Assembly (NCBI GenBank): GCA_934700265.1
Contig: CAKUXH010000019.1
Location: 1 to 12,841 of the forward strand
Source of the DNA: an uncultured Opitutales bacterium
Lineage (GTDB): Bacteria > Verrucomicrobiota > Verrucomicrobiia > Opitutales > UBA9783
Length of the DNA stretch: 12,841 nt
Direction: 5' to 3'
Shown here: positions 60 through 10,739 of the stretch, in pieces
Numbering within the stretch: position 1 is the first letter of the stretch
Layout of the letters: each line of letters begins with the position of its first letter
Made by a program: the position numbers and the translations under genes
The notes under the pieces: generated by a model
Told to the model about the DNA's origin: nothing
Databases searched by the model: none
What the model saw: only the letters and a program-made list of their open reading frames with translations

Positions 60-88
60 TTGCTAAAAAATAGCAGATGTAGTATAAT
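60..88 (+). promoter_or_regulatory. Sigma70-type promoter for the poly-G gene
   Basis: A -35 TTGCTA (60-65) and a perfect -10 TATAAT (83-88) are separated by exactly 17 bases. The expected transcription start is about base 95, which is the A of the ATG of the following gene, so the mRNA would be leaderless or nearly so. The ten bases ending in this -10 (GTAGTATAAT) recur exactly in the der promoter. TTGATA at 48-53 is too far upstream to be the -35. Confidence 0.7.
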
Positions 89-94
89 AAAAAT

Positions 95-1810
95 ATGGGG
101 AAATACTTGCAAATATTAAAAAATCTGTTGGGGGGGGGTATTACAAGCCTAATAAAAACGGGGATTTTTTTGATTGTATGGATTTTAGGTTTGCAAGAGG
201 TTGTTGGGTACGAACCAGGGAGCATTGCTGGTAAATATAGCAGTGGTCTTATTGGTTCATTGCCTTATGAATCATGGATAAAACGTTGGGGAGATTTGTA
301 TGGTTCTGGAGCTGCGAGGCAAAATATTGTTCCGAGTGCGATGGTAGATGGTAAAGGTGATTTATACACATTAGTACTTGATTATTTTTATACAGGAAGT
401 CGAGGTCCTGATTTTCATTTGACGAAATTTTATTGGAATGGGACAAATGTTTCTAGAGGAAAAACCAAATGTATAGATGCTTGGCGCGAGTGGCATGGAA
501 GTAGTTTAAATATTAAAGATACACCTAATTTACCTTTAGACCAAGATGCTATGTACTTTAGAGAATATTTTCCTAACGTATTACATTCATGTATTTGTCA
601 AGATTTGTACGAAGACAGTGAGTATATTGTTGTGAATTTTTATGTTCCTGCGTTGCGTTTTGCGAATGTTACTGATACCGAAGGAATTTATACGCAAGTT
701 CTTAGAAAGTCAGATTTTTCTGTTTACACAACGGAAAAATATCATGGACATGATAAAGACAATCAGTTTTCTTTTAATCATTTGAAGCCTCGACGTTATA
801 ATACTTCTTGGAATTATGGAGTTCCTACTAATTTTCTTTCTGGTGCAAATAATCGAAATATTAATTATAATTTATTTTTCCCAGGTCTTAGAAAAACAAA
901 TGGTTATGATTCCGGTGGTATTTATAATTTAAAGACATTGTGTTGCGAAGGAAATTATAATTCGTCTGGAATTGCTATTGAATCACGTTACATTAAATTT
1001 GGCAGCAGTTGTTATGGGTTATGTTGTTGGGCTGGAAACTACTGGGTTTTATTATTTTCCTTTGATCCTACTACTTATTGGAAATCTTTTCAATCTTATA
1101 ATGATTGGTATGGTTTGTATAAAAAAATGACAGAGGGTAGTTCAGATTATGATCATTATACACCGTATCATTATGATTTTTGTATTGTAAAAGCGCCGGA
1201 TGGTACTGGAGTTGCATGTGTGTTGGGATTGAGGAGGTGTGATGCTAGTACAAATTCATATACAGCTCTATCAGAGAAAAGTAATTTTCGTTGGAACGCG
1301 ACGAGTATTAATTGGTGGCGATCTACAGATACCTGTCTTATCTTAACATCAAGTAAATTGGGTACTACTCCCTCTTCAAGCTATTCGGATGATCCGCAGA
1401 ACATGATTTATACAACGGGAGGAATATGGTCACATGCGTTATCTTGCTCACATGGATTGTATGGAACCTATGGTTTGTATGATAACACGCATAAATGTTG
1501 CGTATATATGAGTAGTACGGGTTCTCAGTACATTATTTATTGTTACTGCTATCCAGGAATGAAAAAACGACTATATTTGGGGTATGCCATGTGTTCTGTG
1601 GATAAAGATTATAAAGTTCAATTAGGAACGAAATATGAATTTAGAGCAAATTCTTCGCAGTGGAGTGAAAGTTTTAGTAACTTGAATTCGTGTTCGCGGA
1701 TTATATCGATGGATTGTAGGAATGGGCATCTGTGGATTACGTGGGTGAATGCTGACGATTCGGAATATTATTACTTTCATATCTGTGCTAAAGACCTTGT
1801 TGGTGAGTAA
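95..1810 (+). CDS. Unrecognised Cys/Tyr/Trp-rich, probably exported protein with a poly-G tract
   Basis: I do not recognise this 571-residue protein. Residues 1-21 carry scattered lysines and 22-38 form a hydrophobic segment, so an N-terminal signal peptide or membrane anchor is likely. The rest looks extracellular: I count 21 Cys (including CC pairs at 283-284, 310-311 and 468-469), about 52 Tyr and 18 Trp, with many Ser, Asn and Gly. Short aromatic strand-like stretches alternate with Asp/Gly/Asn turns (for example LWITWVNADDSEYYY near the C-terminus), which suggests an all-beta fold, possibly propeller-like; that is a guess. ATG 95 has no Shine-Dalgarno sequence, and the promoter places the transcript start on it. 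A run of nine G at codons 12-15 controls the frame. No Met or plausible start after the run would keep the hydrophobic segment. The long open frame and coherent composition argue for a real gene; the function is unknown. Confidence 0.75.
   Translation: MGKYLQILKNLLGGGITSLIKTGIFLIVWILGLQEVVGYEPGSIAGKYSSGLIGSLPYESWIKRWGDLYGSGAARQNIVPSAMVDGKGDLYTLVLDYFYTGSRGPDFHLTKFYWNGTNVSRGKTKCIDAWREWHGSSLNIKDTPNLPLDQDAMYFREYFPNVLHSCICQDLYEDSEYIVVNFYVPALRFANVTDTEGIYTQVLRKSDFSVYTTEKYHGHDKDNQFSFNHLKPRRYNTSWNYGVPTNFLSGANNRNINYNLFFPGLRKTNGYDSGGIYNLKTLCCEGNYNSSGIAIESRYIKFGSSCYGLCCWAGNYWVLLFSFDPTTYWKSFQSYNDWYGLYKKMTEGSSDYDHYTPYHYDFCIVKAPDGTGVACVLGLRRCDASTNSYTALSEKSNFRWNATSINWWRSTDTCLILTSSKLGTTPSSSYSDDPQNMIYTTGGIWSHALSCSHGLYGTYGLYDNTHKCCVYMSSTGSQYIIYCYCYPGMKKRLYLGYAMCSVDKDYKVQLGTKYEFRANSSQWSESFSNLNSCSRIISMDCRNGHLWITWVNADDSEYYYFHICAKDLVGE
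130..138 (+). repeat. Poly-G tract of nine, putative slippage site
   Basis: Nine consecutive G lie within codons 12-15 (TTG GGG GGG GGT) of the exported-protein gene and encode the end of Leu12 and Gly13-15. With eight G the frame would end at TAA 150-152; with ten G it would end at TAA 232-234. Only nine, or nine plus or minus multiples of three, keeps the gene open. Such tracts are known slipped-strand switches in other bacteria, so phase variation is a reasonable inference here. A homopolymer sequencing error cannot be excluded, but the frame as given is intact. Confidence 0.85.
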
Positions 1811-3329: not shown

Positions 3330-5438
3330 TTATTTCCTTAGTTCATCGTAATTAAGTTTAAGAATTCCGAAGTTACGAATTTGAATGTCATTAGGCAGCT
3401 CTTGGTAGGAAAGAACAATCATTTTAGGGAAAGATGGTTCGAAAAAACGTTTGAAGGGTAAGCGTAGCTCATTAGATGTTAAAACAATAGGATCCATAGA
3501 CTGCTCTGTCATATTGTTTAAAAGAGGAGTTAAATGCTTTAAAAGCTCTTGTGTAACCGTTGGTTCAATGAACAGTCCAATTTCAAATTGTGTGCGTTTG
3601 ATTTTTGAAATCAATTCATTTTCAAGCTTTGGATCTAAAATGATAGCAGACAGATAATTATCGTGGATATAATTTTCAATGAAATACATTCCTAATCGAC
3701 GTCGTGCCTGTTCTGATAAATCGTCTGGATGTTTCGTATATGGGGCAAAATCACCAATAGCTTCCAAAATAAGAGTTAAGTGTTTTAGACTGATCCCTTC
3801 TTTTAATAAATTTTGTAGAACATGTTGTATAAGTCCAACAGAAACAAGATCTGGAAGAAGTTCGCTGATAAGGGTAGGATGGGTTGTTTTGACTGCATCG
3901 ATTAGTTTTTGAGTGTCTTCGCGGCATAATAATAAATGAGCATTTTGCTTTAAAGTTTCTGATAAATGTGTGATGAGAACGGAAACAGGATCTACCAAAG
4001 TATATCCTTTTAATTCAGCTTCTTCTTTATCTTTTTCTTGAACCCACCAAGCTTTTAAATTGAAAACAGGTTCATGGGTTTCTATAGCATTATTTAATGG
4101 TATAAGTCCGTCAACATCACAGCCACTCATAGCAAGCCAGGCATTGGCTTCCAGGGTATTACTTGCTAGTGCTTTTCCTCGTAATAAAATACGGTACTGA
4201 TTCCCATTAAGATCAATATTATCTTTTATGAAGATTTTAGGAATGAAAATTCCCAGTTCTCGTTCAAGCTTTTTTTGAATATTGCTTACACGGTCAGAAA
4301 GCGAACCACCACTATTTGAGTCATTATATTGCAGAAGATTATATCCTAATTCCAATGTAATGATTTCATTATCTAATGTGGCCATTGTAGGTGAAGTTTG
4401 AACTTCTTCAGAAGGGCTATCCGATAGTTTCCCTTGCTGAGTTGACAGAGCTTCTTCAAATTCAGAGCCGTCTATATTTTTGCTTTTTAAATGAAAAGCA
4501 ATGAAAATTAAAAATAAACCTAAACTGAAAAATGGAAGGAAGGGCATTCCGGGTATGATAGCAAAAACAATCATCATAGAAGCAACAATTTTGATGGCTT
4601 TTGGAGAAAAGAATAATTGTTTCTGAAAATGTTCACCAAGGTTGCTGGATTCACTTGTTCGTGTGATGAGCATACCTGCTCCGATGGAAACAATAAGTGA
4701 TGGTATTTGTGATACAAGACCATCACCGATAGAAAGGAGGGTATAACGTTGGAGGGCGTGTAATAGAGGCATTCCTTTTTGGACAACCCCAATAGCGATA
4801 CCTCCAACAACATTAATGGCTGTAATTAACAATCCAGCAACGGCATCGCCTCGTACGAATTTACTAGCACCATCCATAGCTCCATAGAAGTCAGCTTCTT
4901 TTTGAATTTTCATGCGTCGTTGAGTTGCTTTAGCCTCATCAATGAGGCCGGTATTTAATTCGGCATCGATAGCCATTTGCTTTCCTGGCATTGCATCTAA
5001 TGTAAAACGTGCAGCAACTTCAGCAATACGTCCTGCACCTTTGGTAATGACAACGAAATTTACGACAACAAGAATAAGAAATACAACAGCCCCTACAACG
5101 TAATTCCCTTGAACGACGAAATTACCAAATGAATCAATAACGTTCCCTGCATAGCCTTCTAATAGAATAAGTCGAGTTGAAGCAACGTTTAATCCTAGTC
5201 GAAATAAAGTTACTATTAACAATAAAGTTGGAAAAACTGTGAATTCTGCAGGATTTTTTAGATAAATAACGATCAGAAGTGTAAGAAGAGATAAACCTAT
5301 GCTTATCGCTAAAAGTAAATCCATTAAAACGGGTGAGATTGGTAATACCAGAAGCATAACAATCCCAAACAAAGCAAATGTAAAAATAACATCTGTTTGC
5401 TGAAACAATCGTTTAAATGGAGTTTTTTCTTCTGGCAT
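3330..5438 (-). CDS. flhA: Flagellar export apparatus protein FlhA
   Basis: FlhA is the large integral-membrane subunit of the flagellar type III export gate; it uses the proton gradient and docks chaperone-substrate complexes. The 702 residues match the family's usual length. Residues about 15-315 hold the membrane segments, with the FHIPEP signature loop at 137-167 (RIAEVAARFTLDAMPGKQM within it) and the conserved FVRGDA (Asp198). A Ser/Glu-rich linker (about 320-356) leads to the cytosolic domain. Its THLSE motif and the LIQHVLQNLL segment favour flagellar FlhA over the injectisome paralogue SctV. The gene starts 4 bases after the adenylate cyclase stop and has no Shine-Dalgarno sequence, so it is the downstream member of a two-gene unit. 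No other flagellar gene is in the window. I cannot tell from here whether the cell is motile. Confidence 0.93.
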   Translation of the reverse strand: MPEEKTPFKRLFQQTDVIFTFALFGIVMLLVLPISPVLMDLLLAISIGLSLLTLLIVIYLKNPAEFTVFPTLLLIVTLFRLGLNVASTRLILLEGYAGNVIDSFGNFVVQGNYVVGAVVFLILVVVNFVVITKGAGRIAEVAARFTLDAMPGKQMAIDAELNTGLIDEAKATQRRMKIQKEADFYGAMDGASKFVRGDAVAGLLITAINVVGGIAIGVVQKGMPLLHALQRYTLLSIGDGLVSQIPSLIVSIGAGMLITRTSESSNLGEHFQKQLFFSPKAIKIVASMMIVFAIIPGMPFLPFFSLGLFLIFIAFHLKSKNIDGSEFEEALSTQQGKLSDSPSEEVQTSPTMATLDNEIITLELGYNLLQYNDSNSGGSLSDRVSNIQKKLERELGIFIPKIFIKDNIDLNGNQYRILLRGKALASNTLEANAWLAMSGCDVDGLIPLNNAIETHEPVFNLKAWWVQEKDKEEAELKGYTLVDPVSVLITHLSETLKQNAHLLLCREDTQKLIDAVKTTHPTLISELLPDLVSVGLIQHVLQNLLKEGISLKHLTLILEAIGDFAPYTKHPDDLSEQARRRLGMYFIENYIHDNYLSAIILDPKLENELISKIKRTQFEIGLFIEPTVTQELLKHLTPLLNNMTEQSMDPIVLTSNELRLPFKRFFEPSFPKMIVLSYQELPNDIQIRNFGILKLNYDELRK

Positions 5439-5442
5439 GAAA

Positions 5443-7752
5443 TTATTTTGTTTTCATCACAAAAACGCCATTCCAATCTTCTTCAGGGGGATTTTGCAAC
5501 ATATACTTACAACGATTTCTGAAAACAATGGATGGGTTAGTATATATTCCAGGATCTCGTTCTGGAACTAATGGTTCTAGGACAGCTGATTGTTCAAAGC
5601 ATTGAATAGCTGTTTGCCAATTGCGAGATAAGTAATTATGAATGCCTTTTTCAAATAGTTCAATACAATCAAAGGTCGTTTGTTTTAAATTTCTCTCTAG
5701 ACCGATAAGTTCGTAGACTCCTAAAGGATGTTGACGACCTTTAACAACAATCCTATCGATGAATCGGAAAACCAACTGGTTGGGTTCTGTTATAACTTCC
5801 TTGTAGGTGTCTTCACTTACAAGTGTGTATACACCATAAGCTTTTGCTCCGGATTCACAACGCGCTCCAATATTTACGGTGTCTCCCATCATTGTAAAAT
5901 TAAAACGTGTTTCTGAGCCCATATTTCCCACAACTGCATTGCCAGAACATAGACCAATACGGGTTCGCATGCGAAAAATCTCTGGAGGCCAATTGCTGTG
6001 ATCTCTAGCCCATTTTTCTCTTAAAAATGCTTGTTTTTCTTGTATGTTACATGCGGCGATGCAAGCACTTAATGGGTGATGATCAAGTGTAAAAGGTGCG
6101 CCAAACATTGCGACAACAGCATCTCCTATATATTTATCAAGCGTGCCACCTTCATTGATAATGGTATTGGTTACTTGCGTTAAGTATTCATTCATTAAGG
6201 CGACTAAAGCTTCTGGATCAAGTAATTCAGAAAATGTTGAAAAATTTTGAATGTCGCTGAAAAAGGCAGTTAAGTTACGTTCAACGCCTCCTAATTGAGG
6301 ATCGTCTTGTTGTTTTAGCATGGCTGTAACAAGTTCAGGTGATAAATAATTTCCAAATACACGTTTTAGTCTTAAGCGTTGTTGCCTTTCTACAATGAGC
6401 TGATATACAGTTCCTAGTCCCCAGAACATGATAATTGACCCTAAAGGGGCAATAAATGGAAGTGCTAGGTTTATTGTTATGGAATATACTCCGAATAAAT
6501 AAAACGTAAGTAGGAAATAAATAATAATACAGCTAAAAAATAAGCGTGTATATTTTGAGAATATTTCTGGATACAAGGTTAAGCTTGCGATAAAAAAGTT
6601 TAGAATGAATATAATTAAAAATTCTGCCCAATTAGGTAAATGTTGGACATAGGCATCCCAATACATTGTTTTGAAGGCATTAATATGTGCACTTATGTGT
6701 GGTTCTTTTTTGGTGGTAAGAACTTTTATTTGGGTTGTTTCATCAGCAACATTACTTAAAAAAACAATAGCCTTATTAAATTGTTGGAAAAAGGATTTTG
6801 CATCTTTTTTTTCAGCAAGTAGAGAAGCATTCGATTCCAATACGTCAAAGTTTTTGATTACACTTTCTAAATTAACTTTTTTATCGGAGGAAGATTCAAA
6901 AGGGGAAAACCAATTGATTTCAAGAAGTTGTCTTTGTGTTAAAGGAATTTGTTTTACAACAGAAATTTCTTTATCTAAAAACAAAATGACATGTTTTTTA
7001 TGATATGTTTCGGTAGGAGCATCATCACCACGAATATCTAAACTTCCTTTATGGTTTAAATAGAGGCGTAATGCTTCGACACTAAGTCCGTAAAATATGT
7101 TATTTTTTGTTCTAGCATAAAGAGGTAGCCAACGAACACCATCTTCGTAATTTGTGGAAGAAGAAACATTGTTTAAAGCAATAATCGTATTATCACTTAT
7201 GATATTATTCGAAGGTAAAATTGGATCTTTGATTTTAGAAAAGTCGATGAATCCTTCCTTGATGAGTGGTAACGGATATTCATTGCGAAGGAAGGTTTGA
7301 TCTCCAGTGCCATTGCAATTAAACCATCCACCTACAATAGTATTTTTTAATTGAGAAAAATAATACTGGCATAATTGTTCGTCGGTTTGTACTTTATGTG
7401 GATCAATAAGAGTTGAATATTGTTTTTCCCCGAAAAATATATTGGTGGCAATAACAGCTGGAGTTGAATATTTTTGAATAGCGTACATTGCTTTTGTGTA
7501 ATAACTCATAGGAATTGGTTGTTCACCCATAAGTTTGAGCGATGAAGTGTCGATGTTTACACAAACAATGTTAGGTTGTTCTTTTTTAGAGAGTTCTGAA
7601 AGTTTTTTTTCATCGACATTACCTCTTAAAAAGTAACGTAAATAAAGTGTATAATTCTCTAGATGTTGTACCCACTGATACCGTTCGGATAATTGCCAGA
7701 AAATAGGAAGGGCAAAAAATGCTAAAAATATTTTAAGAAAACCTTTAATCAT
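5443..7752 (-). CDS. CHASE2 domain membrane-bound class III adenylate cyclase
   Basis: This 769-residue protein probably makes cAMP from ATP in response to an extracytoplasmic signal. Residues 4-20 form a first membrane segment. Residues about 35-370 are an extracytoplasmic CHASE2-type sensor (INAFKTMYW near its end). About three membrane segments follow at 375-450. The cyclase domain is about 490-690. Metal-binding Asp500 (FFSDIQNFS) and Asp544 (DKYIGDAVVAMFG) are present, as are the adenine-selecting Lys540 and Asp624 (MMGDTVNIGAR) and the transition-state Asn627 and Arg631, so it should be active and ATP-specific. Residues about 700-750 look like a TPR-type helical tail. ATG 7752 follows a strong divergent promoter. 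The gene is directly followed by flhA. Confidence 0.9.
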   Translation of the reverse strand: MIKGFLKIFLAFFALPIFWQLSERYQWVQHLENYTLYLRYFLRGNVDEKKLSELSKKEQPNIVCVNIDTSSLKLMGEQPIPMSYYTKAMYAIQKYSTPAVIATNIFFGEKQYSTLIDPHKVQTDEQLCQYYFSQLKNTIVGGWFNCNGTGDQTFLRNEYPLPLIKEGFIDFSKIKDPILPSNNIISDNTIIALNNVSSSTNYEDGVRWLPLYARTKNNIFYGLSVEALRLYLNHKGSLDIRGDDAPTETYHKKHVILFLDKEISVVKQIPLTQRQLLEINWFSPFESSSDKKVNLESVIKNFDVLESNASLLAEKKDAKSFFQQFNKAIVFLSNVADETTQIKVLTTKKEPHISAHINAFKTMYWDAYVQHLPNWAEFLIIFILNFFIASLTLYPEIFSKYTRLFFSCIIIYFLLTFYLFGVYSITINLALPFIAPLGSIIMFWGLGTVYQLIVERQQRLRLKRVFGNYLSPELVTAMLKQQDDPQLGGVERNLTAFFSDIQNFSTFSELLDPEALVALMNEYLTQVTNTIINEGGTLDKYIGDAVVAMFGAPFTLDHHPLSACIAACNIQEKQAFLREKWARDHSNWPPEIFRMRTRIGLCSGNAVVGNMGSETRFNFTMMGDTVNIGARCESGAKAYGVYTLVSEDTYKEVITEPNQLVFRFIDRIVVKGRQHPLGVYELIGLERNLKQTTFDCIELFEKGIHNYLSRNWQTAIQCFEQSAVLEPLVPERDPGIYTNPSIVFRNRCKYMLQNPPEEDWNGVFVMKTK

Positions 7753-8785: not shown

Positions 8786-10120
8786 TTATTTAAAAACGTA
8801 ATCTTGTGGATTGGCAGATAGGTTGGCCTTGGGGTGTTCAGCAAAACCCCAGCGCCAAGAAATAGGATGGAGAACAAAAGCTGCTTTTCCTAAAACTTCT
8901 TTTTCGGGTACTTCTCCCCAAAAACGGCTATCGTAACTAAATGGAGAATTGTCACCAAGAGCAAAGAAATGATTTTTTGAAACGGTGGTAGTTGTGCCAA
9001 ATTTTAGGCACCCATCGGCACGGTAGCCAGGATAAATCCCAAGTTTTTGGTTGTTGTTTTCGAATGCAGAACTACCGGTAGCTAACTGACCATTACAATA
9101 CAGCCGGTTATTTTGTATTTTTAATTGATCGCCTGCTTGACCTGCTAAACGTTTAATATAGTAAAGATCACTGTTTAAACGAGGGATTTTTTTTGTGCGA
9201 AATACGATGGCTTCTCCATTACGAGGTCTTCTAAAGTGATATGTTAATCGATCTACGAAAACCATATCTCCACATAAAATATCGAAATGAAGGCAGCATT
9301 TTCCTTTTTGAGCATACGTAGAGGTGTTGATATAGTAGCCTTTTTCACTTGAATAATTTAGATCTAAATAAGGTGATTGCAAAACAGAAGTAAAACTTTC
9401 ATATTGTGGGAAAAATTTTTTGCGTAGTAGTGCTTCCATATCAGTAAATTCATAAGGCATTCGAATACGAATTTGTTCATGACCTACCCATAGGATATAG
9501 ACTTTATAAGGTTTAGGTAGAAAGTGTTTAAACCAGAACGGTCCGATCTCTCGACCATATTCGATTTCATAACGAATATGTGAATTATATTTAACCATAT
9601 CTTGCTGATTAAATAATGGGATTTTTATAAAGCCATTATTTGGAGCTTTGTAGTGGTAGTTTTCTGCGCCTTTTAAAAGCCATCGAAACGGTTTTATAAT
9701 AAAACTTGGTGGAGTTTTTTTGTCTGATTGAACCTGGGTTAGCATTCCCGAAAAAGAAGGAAACATGGAGCAAGTGGGAATACGAAACGGTTGTATAAAA
9801 AATGTTCGTATGCTCAGTGCTAAAAATGCGGCAACCCATAGAACTTCTGCATTATCACTCCAGAAAGAAACAGGAAAAAAAGGTGTTTTTAATGATTTTA
9901 AATATTTTTGCAATTGATTTAAGGCTTCCTGGATGCCTTCAGGTGGAGGTGTGCTTTTTGCCCAGGTTTTATTTAAATTGCTTAATAAGTTTTGGTAATT
10001 GAGGATCGTTTTATTTTGATCGGCTGTTAAAATATCACAGCGATAATTACGAATCTTGGTTGCCCAGTGCAAAGCATCCAAAACAGATTTTCGTAAATTC
10101 TTTTCGTTGTGATTAAACAT
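8786..10120 (-). CDS. lepB: Signal peptidase I with a large insertion
   Basis: This peptidase removes signal peptides from exported proteins at the outer face of the inner membrane. From ATG 10120 the protein has 444 residues. Residues 1-89 are a charged helical cytosolic region, and 90-113 a membrane segment. Ser118 in IPTCSMFPS is the nucleophile. The motif DMVFVDRLTYHFRRP is at about 285-299, Lys323 in YYIKRLAGQAGD is the general base, and GDNSPFSYDSRFWG starts at 389. Ser and Lys are 205 residues apart, against about 55 in E. coli; the extra 150 or so residues are an insertion seen in large PVC-type signal peptidases. The frame extends to TTG 10153, but that would overlap marC. ATG 10120 starts 1 base after the marC stop, without a Shine-Dalgarno sequence, so the two are probably co-transcribed. 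Confidence 0.93.
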   Translation of the reverse strand: MFNHNEKNLRKSVLDALHWATKIRNYRCDILTADQNKTILNYQNLLSNLNKTWAKSTPPPEGIQEALNQLQKYLKSLKTPFFPVSFWSDNAEVLWVAAFLALSIRTFFIQPFRIPTCSMFPSFSGMLTQVQSDKKTPPSFIIKPFRWLLKGAENYHYKAPNNGFIKIPLFNQQDMVKYNSHIRYEIEYGREIGPFWFKHFLPKPYKVYILWVGHEQIRIRMPYEFTDMEALLRKKFFPQYESFTSVLQSPYLDLNYSSEKGYYINTSTYAQKGKCCLHFDILCGDMVFVDRLTYHFRRPRNGEAIVFRTKKIPRLNSDLYYIKRLAGQAGDQLKIQNNRLYCNGQLATGSSAFENNNQKLGIYPGYRADGCLKFGTTTTVSKNHFFALGDNSPFSYDSRFWGEVPEKEVLGKAAFVLHPISWRWGFAEHPKANLSANPQDYVFK

Positions 10121-10121
10121 T

Positions 10122-10739
10122 TTAATGAGCGAACCCAGCAATACCACCTGCAATAAATTGAGCAGCCATAGCTACAACAATAAGTCCGCAAAGTTTTGTA
10201 CTAATTTGAACAACCGATTTTGTTAACCATTTCGAACTAAAAGCTGTAATGTAGAAACCACTATAAAATGTTAACATTAATAGCACTAAAGCGACATAAG
10301 CATACACATTTTGGATCGAATTAATGGCATCACTTTTGGCGATCATCAATGATGAAATGGCTCCAGGTCCTGAGATGATTGGAAATGCAAGTGGTGTTAC
10401 AGTGATATCGAGACGACTTTGTTGCTTGTTGCTGCTAGTTGTTTCATCTGAAATCTGAGAACGTATCATGTCAAGCCCCATAAGCCCCATGATGATTCCA
10501 CCGGCGATACGAAATGCATTCATATCGACACCCATAAAATCTAAGAGACTTGGGCCAAAAAATGCGCATGCGAGAAGGATACCAAAAGATACATTAATCG
10601 CTTTTATGGATAATTGCCAACGTTCTTTGGGGGTATATCCTGGCGTCATTGCGATTAACATAGCCATAGCCGCAATAGGTGAACTTGCTGCGAACAATTT
10701 TGCGTACATTTCAATTAAATATAAGACATCAGCATTCAT
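10122..10739 (-). CDS. MarC family integral membrane protein
   Basis: This 205-residue protein is nearly all hydrophobic, with about six membrane segments. The MarC/UPF0056 hallmark PLAFPIISGPGAISS is at 116-130, and an N-terminal AASSPIAAMAMLIAMT stretch matches the family's start. The polar linker at about 97-110 (SDETTSSNKQQSR) separates the two halves. The family's role is unsettled; the old link to multiple antibiotic resistance was withdrawn, so no transport function is claimed here. ATG 10739 has no Shine-Dalgarno sequence. It lies 147 bases after bioY and 1 base before lepB on the same strand, probably forming a marC-lepB unit. Confidence 0.9.
   Translation of the reverse strand: MNADVLYLIEMYAKLFAASSPIAAMAMLIAMTPGYTPKERWQLSIKAINVSFGILLACAFFGPSLLDFMGVDMNAFRIAGGIIMGLMGLDMIRSQISDETTSSNKQQSRLDITVTPLAFPIISGPGAISSLMIAKSDAINSIQNVYAYVALVLLMLTFYSGFYITAFSSKWLTKSVVQISTKLCGLIVVAMAAQFIAGGIAGFAH

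Follow-up and report, generated by a model that had tools for sequence, protein, structure and literature searches.

The 5′-end of the gene at positions 95–1810 of the window, i.e., of the whole stretch of DNA analysed (12,841 nucleotides), raises the question whether a run of nine G in its early codons serves as an on/off switch. The run (codons TTG-GGG-GGG-GGT, 12 to 15, encoding Leu-Gly-Gly-Gly) had been described from the letters alone, in the following called the sequence-only reading, as lying in front of a hydrophobic segment, and this position was confirmed. The features of the region are the following:

19–48, no strand assigned (scored on the minus strand): inverted repeat, terminator-like, 5′ of the gene
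60–88, plus strand: promoter-like TTGCTA-17-TATAAT, the −10 box ending 6 nt before ATG95
95–1810, plus strand: ORF of 571 codons for a putative exported protein, predicted beta-propeller, no Pfam family at 0.001
130–138, plus strand: G9 tract, codons 12–15, likely switch
150–152, plus strand: stop codon met by the ATG95 frame after loss of one G
158–208, plus strand: hydrophobic export segment (codons 22–34) and tail to Gly38, read by eye from sequence and alignment
232–234, plus strand: stop codon met by the ATG95 frame after gain of one G

With nine G, the frame of ATG95 is open for 571 codons up to position 1810, and the stop codons named for eight and for ten G could be verified. The first in-frame ATG 3′ of the tract is codon 83 and a TTG at codon 26 falls within the hydrophobic segment, so that no downstream start retains the whole export segment, as had also been claimed. 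The mature part is predicted to begin at Tyr39.

The statement that nine G are very unlikely to arise by chance was compared with two null models. The G/C runs of the window have lengths of 1 to 5 and then 9, with nothing else above 5, and a first-order Markov model gives an expectation of 0.0085 runs of at least nine per window (0.0063 for G and 0.0022 for C). However, when the codons of the ORF were shuffled synonymously with the encoded protein fixed, 390 of 20,000 shuffles reached at least G9, and this is the fairer null because the protein fixes Leu-Gly-Gly-Gly at this place. The length of the tract is therefore unusual, and by itself not decisive. It exceeds the seven G used as cut-off for the poly-G phase-variable genes of Campylobacter (PMC6321876). 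Taken together, the locus shows a repeat above this cut-off in the reading frame, an early stop codon after a change of one unit in either direction, and a remainder of the gene that is intact and conserved, which are three of the characteristics of a contingency locus. The tract is located 130 nt from the end of its contig, and no strain variants of it were seen in the protein database (one sequence, one contig).

The first protein search revealed 12 relatives, to which a profile search added none. The 571-codon frame aligns with 12 homologues, and the frame given by nine G is the one shared with homologues, matching on both sides of the tract. The three homologues with the N-terminus most like that of the window's protein (P0002, P0005, and P0006) have the same start methionine and share the motif LQILKNL, and at the position of the tract the homologues carry Gly or Glu-rich residues. 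P0003 has no N-terminus, which would fit an out-of-frame copy. The protein is lineage-restricted, and its family was found in four of the 372 genomes of the order that were searched. The source label of one homologue reads Opitutales bacterium, and the FlhA-like protein of the window is 82% identical to one in the MAG Verrucomicrobia bacterium UBA1183. The relatives G001–G009 are listed at 0.7–1.1 Mb.

The product had been called unrecognised, and no Pfam family was found for it at 0.001. A curated match to the sialidases or to another solved beta-propeller family was therefore also lacking. A structure model of modest confidence matches propellers, with identities of 4–12% to the listed structural matches; the prediction for the product is an exported beta-propeller.

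A promoter-like site scoring at least 10/12, with its −10 box ending 6–7 nt before an ATG, was found in seven of ten family members, compared with one of 77 control genes scanned alike (one of 87 genes in a simpler control); the pattern was spotted first and tested afterwards. For two of the three other members (G004:C15a and G004:C22) the 5′-end lies past the scanned stretch or the contig end, and the third (G001:C10) lacks the site. G008:C11, G008:C9, and G004:C21, which are pieces or contain stop codons, were excluded from the family and promoter counts. Of the ATGs linked to these seven sites, five share the frame of the body, and two, in G008:C17 and G004:C15b, lie in another frame. The pattern supports ATG95 as the probable true start and suggests that transcription may begin at or next to it, giving transcripts with little or no leader. 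In G004:C15b (L119:2400–2450), a perfect TTGACA-17-TATAAT lies 7 nt before the out-of-frame ATG, with no high-copy repeat between.

Nine family members from G001, G002, G004, and G008 were scanned over a stretch beginning 330 nt ahead of the match start and ending 150 nt past it. G/C runs of at least six were absent from all nine, and conservation of the tract in the family was rejected on this ground, which was also counted against a switch, although a repeat kept among relatives is regarded here as a frequent and not a defining feature of contingency loci. The tenth match, G008:C11, covers a C-terminal piece. The loci that hold family members (L116–L123) are free of runs of G7 or longer.

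Repeats of another kind were found at the corresponding place. In G008:C17 (L122, 5190–5224), 3.5 perfect copies of the 10-bp unit GTTCTTCGCC separate the ATG from the export segment. In the assembled sequence, the frames of the two ATGs (5182 and 5188) stop directly after the repeat, and the frame of the body can be followed back across it with no ATG encountered. The orthologue G004:C22 (74% identical) has at least 11.8 copies of the 10-bp repeat, extending up to the contig end, so the copy number differs between the two orthologous sites; the array presumably broke the G004 assembly. Elsewhere in the nine genomes, the 10-bp array is found only at the start of G004:C7, where the flank resembles the promoter region of G008 and, by eye, a TATAAT box lies 6 nt before a TTG. 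The contig start of G004:C15a carries a further unit, of 8 bp, in 11.8 copies or more, with the matched body of a family ORF following after about 550 nt, and the same unit stands at the start of G004:C21 beside a promoter-like stretch and a GTG. Over 176.8 kb of DNA taken from the four genomes with the family, TRF detected seven arrays (unit up to 12, at least 3 copies), of which three are at family genes, one (G004:C21) carries the 8-bp unit of G004:C15a and three are elsewhere; as this DNA was picked around family genes and G-runs, the seven do not represent a genome-wide rate. The remaining family members examined have no comparable array.

Long G-runs are widespread in the relatives. Runs of G8 or longer were present in all 11 genomes scanned, including G014, whose runs were counted with their sequence context left out. 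The four family-bearing genomes (about 4.1 Mb) contain three runs of G9 or longer (one each in G001, G004, and G008, and 0 in G002). In G004 (L066:2242–2256), a G15 leaves a methyltransferase-like ORF divided between two frames, and the G008 copy (L070:3001–3008, minus strand) has a G8 at the same site and an open frame of 260 aa. The two copies are 92% identical over the first 115 residues, and their Pfam matches (TylF and Methyltransf_24) are weak (E 0.004–0.006) and fall short of the curated cut-offs. Together with the 10-bp array, this is the second orthologous site at which the repeat length differs between species of the relatives. In-frame G10 runs are located in an FkbM methyltransferase ORF of G005 (L084:1166–1175; Pfam E 1.2e-14) and in a beta-barrel-like ORF of G006 (L098:8692–8701; E 9e-4, below the cut-off).

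In G003, each of the five runs of at least G9 is associated with a single exported-protein family, falling inside a member gene, immediately in front of one, or no more than about 110 nt 5′ of one. By our own arithmetic, some 15 genes of this family with 150 nt upstream make up roughly 2% of the genome. Three of the five runs have a common homologous upstream element, so the five are not independent events. G003 has 17 matches to the family and G005 has 10, some of them being pieces of one gene, and no Pfam match was found for the family; according to our own reading of the sequence it may be beta-barrel-like. Twenty matches were read (15 in G003 and five in G005), of which, by eye, at least eight carry 15-bp repeats immediately in front of the start and about 12 are without a long G/C run. 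The loci concerned (L087 and L155–L167 in G003, L168–L172 in G005) belong to genomes of 0.7–0.8 Mb. By eye, several members have poly-C of 9–11 and poly-A about 50–110 nt upstream, and some are located directly 3′ of a tRNA gene.

A switch at every long G-run was ruled out, as many of the G006 and G007 runs are seemingly intergenic or incidental, and so is one run in G001 and one in G008. In G006 (L095:2993–3001, minus strand, reversed coordinates) and G007 (L110:3001–3009), a G9 directly follows TTGAC in similar contexts, by eye upstream of exported-looking ORFs, and these runs are perhaps promoter-spacer tracts. The only G9 of G001 (L073:3001–3009) lies in an intergenic repeat, and a similar stretch without the run precedes a LysM gene (L124, about 1180–1430).

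On this basis, the G9 tract is probably a slipped-strand translational on/off switch of a predicted exported beta-propeller, i.e., a contingency locus, with the assembled copy open and probably ON. The earlier proposal of a candidate phase-variable gene is supported by the frame shared with the homologues, the 10-bp repeat in the orthologous pair and several long G/C runs in or beside contingency-type genes in the sister genomes; it is the other repeat at the corresponding place in the family and the switch-like runs of the sister genomes, and not conservation of the G-run, that lead to this view. Transcription from the TATAAT box 6 nt upstream would start at or next to ATG95. Replication slippage by one G in either direction would put a short N-terminal peptide out of frame ahead of the export segment, and translation would then end at 150–152 or 232–234, with no downstream start to restore the whole segment. 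Cells of one clone would consequently differ in exporting the protein. We infer that slippage at the tract is frequent in this organism, that the protein reaches the outside and is exposed there, and that selection acts on switching.

The tract could instead be incidental to the glycine codons of a fixed gene, mutating occasionally and having no selected role in switching. Such a history would explain why the homologues have Gly or Glu-rich residues at this position without a known run and why all nine members scanned in the relatives lack one near the start; the frequency of G9 among the synonymous shuffles and the incidental long runs of the relatives point the same way. It is nevertheless considered unlikely, since an orthologous pair of the same family has a different frame-shifting repeat at the corresponding place and since the window has no second G/C run above five. 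Loss of mismatch repair as the cause of the tract is not supported either: MutS_I was found in eight of nine relatives (not in G009), which means that unusual instability is not implied.

Homopolymers are error-prone in sequencing, and the tract is known from a single contig near whose end it lies, so its true length might differ from nine owing to a sequencing or assembly error. The uninterrupted 571-codon frame given by nine G, which matches the homologues both before and after the tract, makes this improbable, and even a wrong length would still mean a long G-run at this place. Homopolymers can also slip in transcription, and the tract might act without any change of the DNA if RNA polymerase or ribosome slippage on G9 fixed the fraction of full-length product. 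Since nine G are already in frame, such programmed slippage could only reduce the output, and such a mode of action would be unexpected for the 10-bp array in the orthologous pair, which leaves programmed slippage the least probable explanation and a very unlikely one. A DNA-level switch by slipped-strand mispairing is thus the preferred interpretation of the tract.

The body of Opa is a beta-barrel, and that of the family described here is predicted to be a propeller. Further differences from the opa genes of Neisseria are the kind of repeat, which is a G-run in the window and an 8- or 10-bp unit in other members, and that switching is proposed here. Both systems are alike in a 5′ frame-shifting repeat in the region of the export signal, a (CTCTT)n in the coding region of the leader peptide in opa, in belonging to a multi-copy family and in a gate before the mature protein (PMC3960869). 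The 10-bp repeats of G008:C17 and G004:C22 come nearest to this arrangement. The poly-G/C genes of Campylobacter likewise have runs of at least seven G in the reading frame, where single-base slippage shifts the frame (PMC6321876), but the organism is unrelated, and here the run is found in one family member only and slippage is a proposal.

Switching by mononucleotide repeats is known mainly from the host-associated Neisseria, Haemophilus, Campylobacter, and Helicobacter (PMC3048395). Literature searches for phase-variable genes in Opitutales, for homopolymeric phase variation in Verrucomicrobiota and for UBA1183 returned nothing. The assertion that no poly-G switch has been described in this kind of organism was nonetheless too strong, as mononucleotide slippage at long G-runs was proposed in 2011 for capsule genes of Akkermansia muciniphila (PMC3048395). 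This bacterium belongs to the same phylum and has its runs in surface-related genes as well; it differs in the genes concerned and, by the labels, in the order, and for its capsule a switch by DNA inversion (an inverton) was demonstrated, with slippage mentioned as a possibility (PMC13343947). Within the literature searched, switching of the type proposed here has not previously been described in this lineage.

For a wider interpretation, the chances appear about even. It would assume a previously undescribed phasome in an Opitutales-type lineage with genomes of about 1 Mb, consisting of a private exported beta-propeller family with start-codon-fused promoters and interchangeable gates (G-run, 8-bp or 10-bp unit) before the export signal, and of poly-G/C runs that switch a large, beta-barrel-like family of exported proteins as well as surface-modifying methyltransferases, by which a reduced genome would keep clonal surface diversity. 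Signs of switching, spread over several gene families in verrucomicrobial relatives with small genomes, suggest that reduced genomes can keep or reacquire clonal surface variation. In addition, the family provides a natural series on the origin of contingency repeats, since the repeat at a single functional position varies among members and is absent from some.

Regarding the gene neighbourhood, a fixed location of the gene at the same place was ruled out in the three relatives examined (G001, G004, and G008). The LysM gene is preceded in G001 by a pseudouridine-synthase-like ORF and an intergenic repeat, and in G008 and G004 by an ORF that reads like aspartate-semialdehyde dehydrogenase (all names read from the translations). 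MarC and signal-peptidase-like genes are located at 8786–10739 of the window, with the family gene 7 kb off, and ORFs similar to these adjoin the family member G004:C22 (L120:2028–3997). At 3330–7752 of the window, the FlhA-like gene adjoins a CHASE2-adenylate cyclase gene, a pair that is also present in G001. G001 and G002 have a second FlhA of about 35% identity, and thus one FlhA set may serve another export system.
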